DNA from: a virus
Virus record (IMG/VR): IMGVR_UViG_3300036831_000067
Span: 1-64,000 of that record
DNA: 64,000 bases
Reading direction: 5' to 3' (one strand)
Position numbers and translations under genes: made by a program. How positions within the stretch are numbered: the first letter of the stretch is position 1; each line of letters starts with the position of its first letter. The notes below the pieces were generated by a model that searched no databases, was not told the DNA's origin, and saw only the letters and a list, made by a program, of their open reading frames with translations. This document shows positions 33,960 through 43,030 of the stretch, piece by piece.

Positions 33960-35507
33960 ATGAGCTTGAACACCGATCTCGAACGACTCTTGGCCGACTT
34001 CGTCAAACACGAGCTGGGTGAGCTGGGCGACAAGCTCGTGGGCGCCATCAGTAATTTCAACACTCAATTGGAGGCCGTCATGGCTGAACTGACCGATCTG
34101 AAGGGCCTGGACGCCAGTTTGCAGGCACTCACCACTTCTCTGACCGGGGTCGTATCTCAGGTCACCGGCCTGCAGAGCCAGGTCGACAGCCTGCAGGGCC
34201 AGGTGAGCACCCTCAACACCCAGCTGGCCGCCAGCCAGGCCCAGGTGGCCTCGGACCAGACCACCATCGCCGCCGATGCCGCACAGATCGCGGCCGACCA
34301 GGCGGCGTCCACGGCCGACGCGGCCGAGATCGCCACTCTGCAGAGCGACATCGCCAACCTGACGAGCACGATCCAGAATCTGCAGAACCTGCTCAACCCG
34401 CCCAAGGCGGCTCCTACGGTGACTTCGATCTCCCCGGCCACCGGCGCCTCCGACAACGGCGGGGACACGGTGACGGTCACCGGTACCGGTTTCACCGGTG
34501 CGACCGGCGTGAACTTCGGCACGGTTGCGGCGACGTCCTTCACGGTGGACTCCGACACCTCGCTCACGGCCGTCTCCCCGGCAGGGGCGGCGGGCACGGT
34601 GGACGTGCTCGTGATCGGGCCGGGCGGTTCCTCGGCGGCCAGCGCGACCGACCAGTTCATCTATCCCACCCCGGTCACCCCGCCGCCGCCCTCGGCGCCG
34701 ACGGTCACGGCCGTCTCCCCGGTGGTCGGTACCTCGGTCGGTGGTGGTGACACGGTCGCCGTCACGGGCACCGGGTTCACCGGTGCCACCGCCGTCAACT
34801 TCGGCACTGTTCCGGCCACCTCGTTCACGGTGGTCGATGACAGCGACCTGACGGCCGTTTCTCCGGCCGATTCCGATGCTGCCGGGGGTAACACCGTCGA
34901 CATCACCGTCGTGACGCCAGCGGGCACCTCAGCGGCCGGTGCGGCCGATCAGTTCACGTACCCGACAGCCACCACTCCGACCCCCACCCCTACTCCCACT
35001 CCGACACCCACGGCCCCGACGGTCACGGGTGTGTCTCCGGCCACGGGGACCTCGGCGGCGGGCGGAGACACGGTCGCGGTGACAGGCACTGGCTTCACCG
35101 GGACCACGGCGGTGAATTTCGGGCCCACACCGGCGGCCTCGTTCACCGTCACCGACGACTCCAACCTGACGGCGGTCTCCCCGGCCGACACCAATGCCGC
35201 CGGTGGTGGCGTGGTGGACGTCACAGTCGTTACTCCGGCGGGCACGTCGGCCGTCTCGGCGGCTGATCAGTTCACGTTTCCCGCTGCCGCGACTCCTACG
35301 CCGACTCCGGCGCCGACTCCGGGAAGCACTCCGGTTCCGGTAGACCCCAACGCTGCTCCGGTGCCCGCAGGCACGGTGCCCCCGACCACGATGGTGGTCG
35401 AGGTTCCGGCCGGGGTGGTTCCGGTGGTGGTGCCCTCTGGGGCCGTGGCCGTGACCGCCGGGTCGTTGCCGCCGGACGCGATAGTGACCCCGGTTCAGAC
35501 GTCATAA
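33960..35507 (+). CDS. Coiled-coil and TIG-domain fibre protein
   Basis: Residues 1-145 form a heptad-rich, Ala/Gln-rich coiled coil (LQSQVDSLQGQVSTLNTQLA). Then come three IPT/TIG immunoglobulin-like domains at about 151-238, 247-337 and 352-442, each with VTSISP/VSPATG near its start, a GGDTVTVTGTGFTGAT core and a T-A-V-SP end. PT-rich linkers separate the second and third and lead to a Val/Pro-rich tail. Tandem TIG domains on a coiled stalk fit a capsid fibre or surface attachment protein binding the host or mucus. It follows the major capsid gene and ends in its own terminator. Confidence 0.75.
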   Translation: MSLNTDLERLLADFVKHELGELGDKLVGAISNFNTQLEAVMAELTDLKGLDASLQALTTSLTGVVSQVTGLQSQVDSLQGQVSTLNTQLAASQAQVASDQTTIAADAAQIAADQAASTADAAEIATLQSDIANLTSTIQNLQNLLNPPKAAPTVTSISPATGASDNGGDTVTVTGTGFTGATGVNFGTVAATSFTVDSDTSLTAVSPAGAAGTVDVLVIGPGGSSAASATDQFIYPTPVTPPPPSAPTVTAVSPVVGTSVGGGDTVAVTGTGFTGATAVNFGTVPATSFTVVDDSDLTAVSPADSDAAGGNTVDITVVTPAGTSAAGAADQFTYPTATTPTPTPTPTPTPTAPTVTGVSPATGTSAAGGDTVAVTGTGFTGTTAVNFGPTPAASFTVTDDSNLTAVSPADTNAAGGGVVDVTVVTPAGTSAVSAADQFTFPAAATPTPTPAPTPGSTPVPVDPNAAPVPAGTVPPTTMVVEVPAGVVPVVVPSGAVAVTAGSLPPDAIVTPVQTS

Positions 35508-36180: not shown

Positions 36181-36708
36181 GTGACAACTCTCGACGAGCT
36201 GGCCTTGAAGTATGGCACCGACAAAGCCTCGGGCTTCCACAACTACTGCCCGATCTATGAGCGCTACTTCGCCGAGCTGCGCCACACCCCGGTGGCACTG
36301 TTAGAGCTGGGGGTTTACCGGGGCGCCAGCCTGCGGATGTGGCGGGAGTACTTCGACAATCCATCGAGCTACTTCTGGGGGGTGGACTACAACACTGGGT
36401 GCTGCGTGGGCCAGGAGGACCGCCTGGAGGTCTTCCGCATCGATCAGGAGGATCCCCGCCTGGCCAACGAGCTGCTGGCCGACTACCCCCTCAACATCGT
36501 CGTCGACGACTGCAGCCACCGGTCCGACCTGACGATCGCGTCCTTCAAAAACCTGTGGCCTCTGGTCGTCGCGGGCGGGTTCTACGTGGTGGAGGACCTG
36601 TGGGTCCAGCCCGAGGCCACCGAGTTCCTGCGCGAGGTCTCCGGGGCCACCATCGAACGCGGCGATGCCAGTGAGATCTGCTTCATCCGGAAGGAAGCCG
36701 ATGGCTAG
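36181..36708 (+). CDS. SAM-dependent methyltransferase
   Basis: The 175-residue protein has the class I methyltransferase signature: motif I LLELGVYRGASL, an acidic strand-end YFWGVDYN, and a late motif IVVDDCSHRSDLTI followed by LWPLVVAGGFYVVEDL, as in the macrocin/cephalosporin-hydroxylase-like O-methyltransferases (Methyltransf_24 type). These act on small molecules and sugars. It is short and lacks a target-recognition domain, so DNA methylation is unlikely. Directly linked to the glycosyltransferase-like gene, which it overlaps by 8 bases, suggesting sugar methylation on virion proteins. Confidence 0.75.
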   Translation: MTTLDELALKYGTDKASGFHNYCPIYERYFAELRHTPVALLELGVYRGASLRMWREYFDNPSSYFWGVDYNTGCCVGQEDRLEVFRIDQEDPRLANELLADYPLNIVVDDCSHRSDLTIASFKNLWPLVVAGGFYVVEDLWVQPEATEFLREVSGATIERGDASEICFIRKEADG

Positions 36709-37438
36709 TCAGTACGCCTGGTACAGCCCGCACAAGGTCGAGGTGCCCGACGGCCAGCGGCTCATGCTCGCGCTGCCGCTCTATAAGTCGGTCTCGGTGA
36801 CCTGGCTGCTGAACATGTTCGGCATGGACCAGTCCTCGGTGGTCGGGTCCGTACGCACCAACGGGGTCTATGTCACCAAGGCGATGCAGATCCTGATCGA
36901 GGCCGCGCTGGACCAGAGCGACTGGGACCGGCTGGTCTTTATGGAGCACGACATGATGGTGCCGCAGGACGCCTTCGCGCGCGTGGCCTCCTACACCAAG
37001 CCGGAGTACGACATCGTCGGCTCGGTGTACTTCGAGCACTACCCTCCCCACAAGGCCATCGTGTACGGCGAGAACCATCCGCCCGAGGAGGCGGGCCAGC
37101 CCTGGAAGGCGGTCAACCTCGGTCCCGACGTCGTGGCCAAACTCGTGGAGAGACCGGCCATCTACGAGGTCGCGGCGGTGGGCTTCGGGTTCACTTCGAT
37201 CGCGCGTCATGTCTTCGAGAAATGGGACGAGGCCACTCCGATGTTCTCCCTCGACGAGTGCTCCCACGACCTGTTCTTCTGCCGCAAGGCCAAGGACCAA
37301 GGCTTCGGAATCTACGTGGACTCCGCCATCTGCTGCGAGCACCTCACCGAGATCTCGGTGGGCTTCCTGCACAACCAGCGGGCCCAGGCCGAAGATGCCA
37401 TGGGCCGTAACTGGATCGATTCCCTGACGCTGGACTGA
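36701..37438 (+). CDS. Glycosyltransferase-like protein (GT-A fold)
   Basis: The 245-residue protein begins MASQYAWYSPHKVEVPDGQR and has RLVFMEHDMMVPQDAF near residue 90, an acidic strand end reminiscent of the DxD loop that holds a nucleotide-sugar metal in GT-A enzymes. YDIVGSVYFEHYPPHKAIVY and VGFGFTSIARHVFE follow, then SLDECSHDLFFCRKAKDQGF near the end. It pairs with the methyltransferase and lies among virion genes, so glycosylation of capsid or tail proteins is the simplest idea. Actinophage virion glycosylation is known. Followed by late motif 5. Confidence 0.65.
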   Translation: MASQYAWYSPHKVEVPDGQRLMLALPLYKSVSVTWLLNMFGMDQSSVVGSVRTNGVYVTKAMQILIEAALDQSDWDRLVFMEHDMMVPQDAFARVASYTKPEYDIVGSVYFEHYPPHKAIVYGENHPPEEAGQPWKAVNLGPDVVAKLVERPAIYEVAAVGFGFTSIARHVFEKWDEATPMFSLDECSHDLFFCRKAKDQGFGIYVDSAICCEHLTEISVGFLHNQRAQAEDAMGRNWIDSLTLD

Positions 37439-37501: not shown

Positions 37502-37648
37502 ATGACTAATCCAGCCATTCCCGCTGGTTCGGGCCTTCCCAAGGGTGCTCAGCTGATCGGTGGAATCGTGGCCTGGGCCAGCGCATCCGTGCAGCATGCC
37601 GATGGCACCGTCGACTCCGATGAAGAGACCGAAGAGGTGCAGCCGTGA
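37502..37648 (+). CDS. Small protein, 48 aa
   Basis: An ORF of 48 residues (MTNPAIPAGSGLPKGAQLIG..., ending in an acidic EETEEVQP). GGGAGG lies 6 bases before ATG 37502, and its stop overlaps the next GTG start (GTGA). The proximal late motif, ribosome site and overlap all support a real gene. A short hydrophobic IGGIVAWASASV stretch is present. Function unknown. Confidence 0.6.
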   Translation: MTNPAIPAGSGLPKGAQLIGGIVAWASASVQHADGTVDSDEETEEVQP

Positions 37649-38046
37649 CCGTTGGATTACACAGTACGAACGTAGCCGAGCCACTGCTCAACACCTTGCG
37701 CGGCACCTCGACGAGCTATGCCTCCACCTGGATCCAGTTACACACGGGCGACCCCTCGAGCGCCGGAACGGCCGCCGTCAGCGTAGGCAGTACCAACAGA
37801 TACCAGGCAACCTTTGCGGCGGCCACGTCCTCGGGTGCCAGTGCATCGATCGCCCTGTCGGCCTCCCCCACCGCATGGACCAACGGCGGCACCAGCGAGA
37901 CCATCTCCTACATCTCGGTGTGGTCGGCTTCCACGGCGGGCAACCCGCTGTGGACGGCCTCGCTGTCGGTGGCCAAGACCTGGGCGAGCGCGGACACCCT
38001 GACCCTGAACACCTGTGGGCTTTCCCTGACCCCACTGGCCGTTTAA
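37645..38046 (+). CDS. Virion structural protein, 133 aa
   Basis: GTG 37645. The Thr/Ser/Ala-rich 133-residue protein contains WIQLHTGDPSSAGTAAVSV, a pattern (LHTGDPG..GT) I know from small phage structural proteins, followed by AWTNGGTSETISYISVWSAS and AGNPLWTASLSVAKTW. It is probably a beta-sandwich accessory or fibre protein. Compare the two proteins downstream, similarly rich in Thr/Ser. Confidence 0.6.
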   Translation: MTVGLHSTNVAEPLLNTLRGTSTSYASTWIQLHTGDPSSAGTAAVSVGSTNRYQATFAAATSSGASASIALSASPTAWTNGGTSETISYISVWSASTAGNPLWTASLSVAKTWASADTLTLNTCGLSLTPLAV

Positions 38047-38677: not shown

Positions 38678-41600
38678 ATGGGTGTCACCTACGACTCGGT
38701 TGGCGCTGGCAACGGCCAGCAAGCTGCGACCGTGAGCGAGACGCACACCATTGGCGCGGGCGCCAATGCCCTGGTGCTGGGTGTCACCGCATGGGGGACA
38801 GGCGCTACAGGTAACACGGCCACGGTGGGAACCACCTCCATGACGCTGCTGGGTAACTACACGCCCGACAGCGGCACGATGTATCTTCTGATCTTCGGGT
38901 TGTTGAGCCCACCTACCGGGACGCAGACAATAACCTTCACCAGCGCCACCGGTACCCCGTACGTCAACCTCAATTCTGTTGCCTACGCGGGAGTTTTAAG
39001 TTTCGGAACCGCAGTCAACGCCAGCGGCAGCGGAACGGCGGCGTCGCAAACGGTTTCATCAACCACATCGAATCAGCTTATTTTCCAGATGTTCACCGAT
39101 GACCAAGGGTCAGCCAGCGGTGCACCCACGGGCTACAACCAAACCGCCAGGTGGTCTGGGGATGGCAGCGTCGCGCAACCCACGGTGATCGGTGATGCCC
39201 CCGGTGGGGGAAACATCACGTTCAGTGCCACGATGCCCTTGTCTGCGACCTGGGGCGGCCTTGCGATCCCGCTTAATGGTGCTGCTGGTGGTGGTCGCCC
39301 AATCCTTCGCATCCCCAACCGCAACGTCGGCCCGATGGCTCAGCGTCATGTGTTCCGTAGACCGACTCCGACGGTTTTTTCTTTCGGTCAAAATAACTGG
39401 ATCGCCGATGCATCATTGGCCATCGCCGCGTCGTCGATCGACACGATCAGCCAGGGTCAGGTTCTTGACACGTCGTCTTTGGCGATTACCACAGGGCTCA
39501 CCGACACCGCCACCCGAGCTGCGTTCGCCGACACTTCTCTGCCAGTGACCGCCACTATCACCGACAACATCAATGCTGCCTTCCTGGCTAATGCTTCCCT
39601 ACCGGTCACGGCGAACCTTGCCAGCCTGCTGAACCTGGAGGCCTATATTGCCGGTCTCCTTCCGATCACGGCCGGGTTCACCGAGATACTGAATCTGGCG
39701 GGATTGGCCAACACCTCTTTGGGGATCACGGCCGGGCTCACCGACGTGGCCAGCTACGGCGCTGTCGCCAACACCACCCCACTGGCAATCACGGCGGGCT
39801 TGACGGATGCCGCGCGGTTGGCTGCCAAGGCCAACACCTCACTGGCGATCACCGCCGGGTTCACCGGTCTGGCTAATCAGGTCATCAACTCGGCCGTTAT
39901 CTCTTTGCCGATCACGGCGGCATTGACTGCTACGGACACCCGCAATGCGGTCGTTGGCGCCTCTCTCCCGATCACGGTGGGCAACCTGGCTGGGGCTGTA
40001 CCCACCTACGACAACTCCGCGTCCAGCAGCTATCAGAGTGGCACCGGCAGCGGAACGGCGGTCACCTGGTCACACACCGTCGCAGCCGGGGCCTACGCCA
40101 TCATCGTGGTCTTCGTGCCCTACGCCAGTATGTCGGGGCCGGGCTCCGGCACGACCGCTGTGGTGAAGATGGGCACCGTAACCCTGTCCAGCCTGGGTTC
40201 GGTGTTCATCAACAACGCTGCCGAAGGGTGGGCCTGGGTCTTCGGCGGCTATACCTCGGGAAGTGGCGCCCAAACCGCGTCGGTGAAGCTCACCGAATCT
40301 GGGCAAACCTTCACCGGCTACGGTGCGTCATTCACCTACAACAACGTCAGTAGTGTCGGGATCCTCCAGACAGCCTATGGAGGGTCCGCCACCACACAAT
40401 CGGTGTCGGTCCCCTCGGCCAGTACCAATCTCGTGTGGGGAGCCATCCAGATCGGCACCAGCGGTGCCACTCTCGCGGGATTCAGTGCATTCAGCCTCAA
40501 CCAGCGACAGGAACAGGACTCCAACACGACCTGGGGTGAGTCGTTCATCGCTGGGGATATCGCCGGGAGTTCGAGCGTCTCGGTAAGTGTCAACACCAGC
40601 AGCAGCTTTGACTGGGCGGCTGTGGGCCTCTCGCTGAACGGTCTTGCCGGTCCGACGATTGGCTACTCGGGTGTGGCCAATGTTGCTCTGCCGATCACGG
40701 CGGGGGGACTGGTCAATGTCATCAGCAAGGGTCAGGCATTGGTGGCCCTTTCCTTGGGCCTCACCGCGACCCCAACGGCCGTGGCCAGTTACGGAGCCAC
40801 GGCCAACACCTCGCTTCCGATCACCGCAACACCCTTGGGCTCGGTTCACTGGAATGCGGTAGCCAGTGCTGCCCTGGCACTCACCGCGACTCCGACAAGC
40901 GCCGGGGTCCGTAATGCGGTCGTGGATGCTTTACTGCCGATCACCGCAGGCAATATGACCGGGGCTGTCCCTGCCTATGACAATTCCGCGATCAGCAGCC
41001 TTCAGAACGGTGTGCCTAGTCCCGCATCATTTACTTGGACACAGACCGTTGCCGCCGGGGCCTATGTGATCATTGCTATTTTCGAGCCCTACGGCAGCTC
41101 TTTCCACATGCAGGGGCCCGGCAACACGACCGCTGTGGTGAAGATGGGCACCGTAACCCTGTCCAGTTTGGGCTACGCCTTCCTTGGTGGTACCAGCGAC
41201 AGTAATGGATGGACCTGGGTTTTCGGTGGTTATGTTTCGGGAAGCGGCAGCCAAACCGCCTCGGTGACACTCACCCAATCCTTTTCCAATTTCTACGGAT
41301 ATGCGGCATCGTTCACCTACACCAATGTGTTTAGCGTCGGGACTCTCCAGACGGCCTACGGGACAACTACCCCGGGCTCGATGCCGGTGTCGGTTTCTTC
41401 GGCTGCCAGTGCTCTGGTTTGGGGCGCCGTTAACGTGTCTGCCAATTCGACCGTTAATTTAACGTCCATCACCCTAACCCAACGGCAGGCCGAAGACATG
41501 GGCGTGACTTGGGGCGAGGCTTTCGTCGCCGGGGATATTACTGGTGCTACCACAGTTTCGGTGAGTGCTTACACAGCCAGCAGTGACACCTCCGGCTGGG

Positions 41601-43030
41601 CGGCCGTGGGGCTTTCATTGAACGGCCTGCCCGGACCGGTGGTCCAGTATGCGGGTGTTGTTCAGGGTCTCCTGGCGATCACCGCAGGGTTGGTCGACAC
41701 CCTTAGTCTGGGGCGCGCGATTGCCGCCGCTCTGCCCATCACGGCCACACCGACCGGAACGGCCAGCTATGGCGCCCGTGCCAATGTGGCGCTACCGATC
41801 ACCGTGGGATTGCTGGCCAGTTCTGCCCACCTTTGGATGGCCGATGTCGCCCTCGCGATCACGGCCGGGCTTATCGATACGGCCAGCTACGGTGCTGTTG
41901 CTAATGCCTCTTTGCCGATCACGTCCGCCCAGTCCGGAGCGGGGACTCGGGGAGCGCGGGCGGATATTCTTTTGACGGTCATCGCAACGCTCACCGACGC
42001 CGCGCAACTCGCCGGGCTGATCAATACCTCGCTTCCGGTCACCGCAACACCGATCGACACCGTCAGTCAGGGACAGAACCTTGATGGCCTATTGCCGATC
42101 ACGGCCACCCCGACCGGTGCGGCGCGACTGGCGGCACTTGGTAATGCTTTCCTGCTGGTCACGGCGACCCCGACCCAGACGGGATCGCGTGGCCAGAACC
42201 TAGACGCCGTCCTGGGTTTCACGGCCGCCACAACACAGGTCCTTTCCCGGGGTCAGGGCGTGGACAGCACTCTGACCGTCACCGCGACACCGACCGGGTT
42301 CTTCAGCTGGGGCAGCTTCATGACAGCGCTGTCGGTCATTACCGTGACACCCCAGGGCGCTGGGTCGCGCGGACAAAACATGGACGTTTCCCTGCCGTTG
42401 ACGATCGCGGTGTCCAGCCTGGTGAACTGGGCCGCGAACGCCGACGTCCTGCTTCCCATCACCGTCACCACGGTGTCGGACTCCGATCACGGGACCATCA
42501 TCGATGCCGTCCTGGCGATCACGGCCACTCCCAACCAGGTGCTCAAGCAAGACATGCTTGCCGATGCCTCGCTGGGGATCGTCTCCGGTCAGTCCGGCTT
42601 CGTCTCCAACAGCTCGCTGATCAACTCCCTGCTGAACGTCACGGCCGATTTCTCGGTGACCGCCACCGAGGTCAACGTCATCCTCATCGACGTGCAACTG
42701 CCGATCATGGCCACCCCGGACACCGCTGTCGCCTATGCGGGGACCCTGGACACCAACCTGACGGTGACCACCACCCCGGTCAACGTGCTCAACCTCGTCG
42801 GGCTCTTCGACGTTCTGCTGAACGCGACCATCGCCTCGGCGCAGGCCACCGGTCAGGGGCAGAATCTCGATACCTCGCTGGATGTCACCGCCGTGCCCGA
42901 GGTGGACGTCGGCCACAACGCCACCGCCGACGCGGTGCTGGCCGTCATCCTGGAGACCGTCGCGCAGCTCTCCGTGTCGACCGGGGGCGGCAACTTCCTG
43001 ATGTTTTTCCGCAATGCGATGGGTCAGTAG
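38678..43030 (+). CDS. Giant 20-residue-repeat appendage protein, 1450 aa
   Basis: An N-terminal ~200-residue beta-sandwich domain ends in WGGLAIPLNG. Two more copies of a related domain (about residues 440-655 and 762-985) end in WAAVGLSLNG. Between and after them run roughly 37 tandem repeats of almost exactly 20 residues, consensus L-P-I-T-A-T-P-T-x-x-A-S-x-G-x-x-x-D/N-x-S, with the longest array from about 985 to 1430. That period fits a beta-solenoid turn. The product is probably a long fibre. Two copies of the domain share a 41-bp identical DNA segment. Late motif 6 follows. Confidence 0.75.
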   Translation: MGVTYDSVGAGNGQQAATVSETHTIGAGANALVLGVTAWGTGATGNTATVGTTSMTLLGNYTPDSGTMYLLIFGLLSPPTGTQTITFTSATGTPYVNLNSVAYAGVLSFGTAVNASGSGTAASQTVSSTTSNQLIFQMFTDDQGSASGAPTGYNQTARWSGDGSVAQPTVIGDAPGGGNITFSATMPLSATWGGLAIPLNGAAGGGRPILRIPNRNVGPMAQRHVFRRPTPTVFSFGQNNWIADASLAIAASSIDTISQGQVLDTSSLAITTGLTDTATRAAFADTSLPVTATITDNINAAFLANASLPVTANLASLLNLEAYIAGLLPITAGFTEILNLAGLANTSLGITAGLTDVASYGAVANTTPLAITAGLTDAARLAAKANTSLAITAGFTGLANQVINSAVISLPITAALTATDTRNAVVGASLPITVGNLAGAVPTYDNSASSSYQSGTGSGTAVTWSHTVAAGAYAIIVVFVPYASMSGPGSGTTAVVKMGTVTLSSLGSVFINNAAEGWAWVFGGYTSGSGAQTASVKLTESGQTFTGYGASFTYNNVSSVGILQTAYGGSATTQSVSVPSASTNLVWGAIQIGTSGATLAGFSAFSLNQRQEQDSNTTWGESFIAGDIAGSSSVSVSVNTSSSFDWAAVGLSLNGLAGPTIGYSGVANVALPITAGGLVNVISKGQALVALSLGLTATPTAVASYGATANTSLPITATPLGSVHWNAVASAALALTATPTSAGVRNAVVDALLPITAGNMTGAVPAYDNSAISSLQNGVPSPASFTWTQTVAAGAYVIIAIFEPYGSSFHMQGPGNTTAVVKMGTVTLSSLGYAFLGGTSDSNGWTWVFGGYVSGSGSQTASVTLTQSFSNFYGYAASFTYTNVFSVGTLQTAYGTTTPGSMPVSVSSAASALVWGAVNVSANSTVNLTSITLTQRQAEDMGVTWGEAFVAGDITGATTVSVSAYTASSDTSGWAAVGLSLNGLPGPVVQYAGVVQGLLAITAGLVDTLSLGRAIAAALPITATPTGTASYGARANVALPITVGLLASSAHLWMADVALAITAGLIDTASYGAVANASLPITSAQSGAGTRGARADILLTVIATLTDAAQLAGLINTSLPVTATPIDTVSQGQNLDGLLPITATPTGAARLAALGNAFLLVTATPTQTGSRGQNLDAVLGFTAATTQVLSRGQGVDSTLTVTATPTGFFSWGSFMTALSVITVTPQGAGSRGQNMDVSLPLTIAVSSLVNWAANADVLLPITVTTVSDSDHGTIIDAVLAITATPNQVLKQDMLADASLGIVSGQSGFVSNSSLINSLLNVTADFSVTATEVNVILIDVQLPIMATPDTAVAYAGTLDTNLTVTTTPVNVLNLVGLFDVLLNATIASAQATGQGQNLDTSLDVTAVPEVDVGHNATADAVLAVILETVAQLSVSTGGGNFLMFFRNAMGQ
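40151..40191 (+). repeat. 41-bp direct repeat with 41126-41166
   Basis: The 41 bases beginning ACGACCGCTG are identical at 40151-40191 and 41126-41166, inside two homologous domains of the 1450-aa protein. The rest of the domains is diverged, so recent gene conversion or duplication is implied. Confidence 0.8.

Follow-up and report, generated by a model that had tools for sequence, protein, structure and literature searches.

Fibre I of the podophage GP4 is reportedly built from five gp80 dimers that are joined by an elongated rope protein. The corresponding Pfam family, PF23140, is labelled 'Podophage GP4 fiber I protein gp80', and the Protein Data Bank (PDB) structure 8jou contains 10 Gp80 chains in its one entry. 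Here we describe a locus of a soil phage in the IMG/VR virus record IMGVR_UViG_3300036831_000067, of which 64 kb (hereafter the window) out of 72,081 bases were analysed, where a homologue of the GP4 Gp80 gene lies 0.6 kb 5' of a gene for a 1,450-residue protein with long arrays of a 20-residue repeat. The product of the upstream gene matched PF23140 with an E value of 2.7e-20 (73.4 bits, curated cut-off 27) and PDB chain 8jou_a with an E value of 2.5e-7. The array is a real, widespread and unnamed repeat, and the best reading of the protein that carries it is as a new, very long form of known Gp80-type fibre. A first-pass annotation of the window had proposed a free-standing beta-solenoid fibre, an interpretation that is partly supported here. 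It had missed the Gp80 gene and, because Gp80 just upstream pairs with such arrays in widely different phages, our results suggest a two-component, bead-and-rope fibre instead.

The 20-residue units of the window protein fall into three blocks of 10, 5 and 22 rows (about 37 in total, counted by rows), confirming the layout of some 22 rows in a long block and about 15 in earlier ones that had been noted before, and 30 of these units scored above threshold with an automatic unit profile. Lag analysis gave a self-identity of 25–31% at lag 20 across the three blocks. In the long block, which keeps its register from residue 999 with a single 1-residue slip near residue 1340, the value drops to ~12% at lags not divisible by 20. 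The repeats had been called exact, which holds for the length of the unit and not for its sequence, adjacent units being only ~25% identical at the protein level. At a 60-base lag the array DNA was only ~45% identical, which indicates old duplications and not an assembly artefact. A profile of the unit was trained on 25 proteins (consensus AALAVTATLTAAATRTAPAD) and recovered 350 units in them, compared with 7 false ones when the whole set was shuffled; position 3 of the unit is L, position 6 is T and positions 7–8 are A/T. As first supposed, the repeat belongs to no named family, since none of the models in Pfam or NCBIfam extends over the array. The three related domains of ~200 residues that accompany the blocks were also recognised correctly: D2 and D3 are 61% identical to each other, and D1 is 30–31% identical to both (z 9.4 and 6.9 against shuffles). 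In a profile search these domains matched PHROG minor-tail families (phrog_553, E 7e-35, over three stretches), and homologues are annotated as minor tail proteins, in keeping with an appendage protein.

We assessed the association of Gp80 with the array by two independent routes. In the first, a DNA pattern that matched three units in a row and took no account of Gp80 retrieved 120 viral contigs. The profile recognised arrays in 31 of these. Gp80 is present in 27 of the 31, and in each of the remaining ones (L102, L174, L205 and L208) no more than 250 bases lie between a contig end and the start of the array frame. Among 89 contigs with repeats of other kinds, four carried Gp80, and all four also showed a nearby protein with a period of ~20 residues in a lag scan. 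Other 20-residue repeats found with the same pattern (IAD/AVT type and leucine-rich) were set aside because they occurred without Gp80 and scored at background. For the second route, 25 contigs were fetched with the Gp80 sequence of viral contig L213 alone, leaving 24 once the contig of L213 itself was left out. By script, a nearby periodic array gene was present in 18 of the 24, compared with 4 of 138 genes elsewhere in these contigs (p 6e-6 by Fisher's test of the script's counts); the count rises to 20 of 24 with L227 and L230, which were not in the script's count because the frame filter missed them. As a blind check, three further Gp80 genes were located in relatives of the window phage, and two of them have an array nearby.

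The pairing also occurs in cluster L mycobacteriophages, in aquatic phages and, weakly, in Burkholderia phages. Gp80 lies directly 5' of the array gene in a 150-kb relative (L087), in the cluster L mycobacteriophages and in Aegeus, and a middle gene of 160–195 residues separates the two in the window, in L232, L233 and L242 and in L213, where Gp80 is just 5' of the array gene with this one gene between. According to the record note for Sinorhizobium phage phiM5, its virions were found to contain Gp80; a PDB search with the array gene of this phage gave no useful match. The complete aquatic genome MW202462 (L263) encodes Gp80 followed by an array gene, there named 'serine-rich adhesin'. Array proteins are misnamed in public records more than once, that of MT375522 (L264) being called 'E3 ubiquitin-protein ligase HERC6'.

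A direct search with the whole 1,450-residue protein gave no match in phages or viral contigs, and pieces of it were therefore used as queries. The homologue encoded by the 150-kb relative (L032/L087) is 1,964 residues long and has 57 scored units, and in cluster L mycobacteriophages a single gene, gp24, matched both the domain and the array; the array of the window phage is among the longest in this analysis. The array of the L087 homologue also contains three near-identical 14-residue inserts (NGVFPYIFPFxLDG) at residues 740, 1157 and 1270. Related arrays differ in length in steps of 20 residues, as the first-pass annotation had expected of a fibre whose length follows repeat number: internal gaps in pairwise alignments were most often exactly 20 residues long (33 gaps), with others at 40 (9), 60–61 and 80. 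Repeats bias any aligner towards unit-sized gaps; total lengths also differ by near-multiples of 20 (318 vs 258; 238 vs 218). Relatives of the major capsid protein of the window (phrog_2522) occur in 80 viral contigs, including several of 125–167 kb, and we take the window phage to be a Myrna/Bxz1-like myovirus. The repeat protein is absent from the nearest long capsid relative (L085) and is therefore an accessory element.

Taken with these pairings, the repeat protein probably forms the backbone (a rope or stalk) of a fibre made of two components, the second being the Gp80 encoded upstream. Each 20-residue unit would form beta strands and serve as a repeated docking site, so that Gp80 subunits would be strung along the array. 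Because every unit is proposed to offer such a site, the number of units would set both the length of the fibre and its Gp80 copy number. The ~200-residue minor-tail domains, N-terminal and between blocks, may be exposed modules that contact the host. We infer Gp80 binding to the units, a ratio of one unit per Gp80 and a neck or tail location. At that ratio each fibre of the window phage would hold about 37 copies of Gp80, and the ratio itself is a guess because it is based on one rough count. Analogy with GP4 and gene order beside neck and stabilization genes suggest the neck. A general rule, that a Gp80-adjacent rope is a molecular ruler with one unit per Gp80 and that unit duplication tunes the length of a flexible fibre, is conceivable and put forward tentatively.

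Alternatively, the array might fold by itself into a long beta-solenoid stalk with two strands per rung, Gp80 merely fixing this stalk to the virion. An AlphaFold model of the array built with 24 in-register sequences predicts, with moderate confidence, a regular all-beta fold in which every unit contributes two strands of 7 residues and two turns of 3 residues, an arrangement that a flat solenoid could have. The strand pattern recurred in a 456-residue run with 4 sequences, as a model too uncertain to add more, and the top non-significant PDB matches of the array model include ice-binding, hemagglutinin and hemolysin secretion domains, which have beta-solenoid folds. However, the confidence of the array model was low for a solenoid assignment (pLDDT 65.7, pTM 0.57) and no match with an E value below 0.001 was obtained in PDB or viral-model libraries (best PDB match: E 0.02, TM 0.22), so that of the original solenoid proposal a regular beta array is predicted and the solenoid fold itself lacks a significant structural match. 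The 10 Gp80 chains of 8jou further suggest that Gp80 is a repeated part of the fibre and not a single anchor, and we regard a self-standing solenoid as rather unlikely. Triple beta-spiral repeats, as in the adenovirus shaft, comprise about 15–20 residues with two short strands and turns, a unit of similar size, and minor-tail domains are present in the window protein. Yet an ordinary trimeric tail-fibre shaft beside an unrelated small head protein would not account for the presence of Gp80 with arrays in phages of very different kinds, none of the solved trimeric fibres gave a sequence match, and this reading seems improbable. Least plausible of all is that the array links binding domains as a low-complexity, Ala/Thr-rich and for the most part disordered segment, with the 20-residue period as a by-product of duplication: the composition of the array would fit (18% Ala, 14% Thr, few charges), but the unit pattern is kept over 350 units in 25 otherwise differing proteins, the window shows no recent DNA duplication, and regular strands are predicted.

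Several observations weigh against a fibre of Gp80 on a repeat backbone. Gp80 occurs without an adjoining array in a relative of the window phage (L261) and in the cluster B phage Athena (L248). In profile–profile comparison, early alignments of soil and aquatic units were no better than permuted decoys, and broader soil–aquatic profile similarity only modestly exceeded reversed-sequence controls; because reversed sequences scored too, homology between soil and aquatic arrays rests on gene order. The array on its own receives a moderately confident regular beta fold and so might stand alone, its physical link to Gp80 being putative. The identity of the GP4 rope is likewise proposed from the gene order of relatives and the reported make-up of fibre I, and the array protein of the Burkholderia Lessieviruses matched no PDB chain in sequence searches. 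On the present reading, a repeat annotated until now as hypothetical, adhesin or minor tail protein is probably the partner of a fibre protein whose structure has been solved, in a pairing that spans contractile, siphovirus-like and short-tailed phages from soil, water and mycobacteria. Should units count Gp80 subunits, sequence would give fibre length, providing a second ruler beside the tape-measure protein.

The features of the cassette are listed in Table 1. Just 5' of it, methyltransferase-like and weak glycosyltransferase-like genes occupy positions 36181–37438 of the window, and a similar glycosyltransferase-like gene is present in viral contig L028. Given this neighbour, the Thr-rich array could be a target of glycosylation. 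A coiled-coil protein with three IPT/TIG domains (33960–35507) adjoins the major capsid gene.

Table 1. Features of the putative fibre cassette, in window coordinates.
Feature	Position	Strand	Basis
Gp80 fibre protein (PF23140), putative bead	37645..38046	+	Pfam, PDB and phrog_240 matches
Middle gene of the cassette, 195 residues	38062..38649	+	34% identical counterpart in L213
1,450-residue repeat protein (putative rope/stalk)	38678..43030	+	Open frame; phrog_553 minor tail domains
Domain D1 (residues 1-204)	38678..39289	+	phrog_553 matches; domain comparison
Array block 1, about 10 units (residues 246-448)	39413..40021	+	Row layout; unit profile
Inserted domain D2 (residues 437-658)	39986..40651	+	phrog_553 matches; domain comparison
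Array block 2, about 5 units (residues 671-770)	40688..40987	+	Row layout; unit profile
Inserted domain D3 (residues 759-986)	40952..41635	+	61% identical to D2
Array block 3, 22 units (residues 999-1439)	41672..42994	+	Rows; unit profile; AlphaFold

Beaded fibres are also known from the neck of Anabaena phage A-1(L) (gp82-gp81-gp80; PMC10966104), which bears five bead-chain-like fibres of about 16 beads each. Each bead is a gp81 trimer, and the trimers connect head to tail with no repeat rope. The gp80 of this phage, considered as a relative of Gp80, is probably a different protein that shares the number by coincidence. Array proteins of aquatic phages resemble that of the window in their 20-residue unit and, in most contigs, a Gp80 gene directly upstream; they differ in their terminal segments and in having roughly 6–12 units by length, and the sequence link is weak. 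In cluster L mycobacteriophages (Faith1 and others), Gp80 (gp23) is directly followed by a minor tail protein of 761–766 residues (gp24), which shares the 20-residue unit and a related N-terminal domain with the window protein. Unlike the latter, gp24 has 8–9 scored units, a glycine-rich domain (PF21722) and a charged C-terminal module. Closer to GP4 itself, the Gp80 of Burkholderia Lessieviruses is 57–67% identical to the GP4 protein, and the gene after it encodes a protein of 246–291 residues that carries the label virion-associated in BcepMigl and BcepIL02. This protein has a 20–22-residue pattern in which about 10–11 units can be counted by eye, a number close to the 10 copies of Gp80 in 8jou. 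For GP4, the comparison included in the DEV paper describes a 15-fold fibre–tail adaptor. The Gp80 partner in the window differs from the GP4 fibre I kind in its about 37 units and three inserted minor-tail domains, and it belongs to what is presumably a Myrna/Bxz1-like myovirus, whereas GP4 is a podophage.
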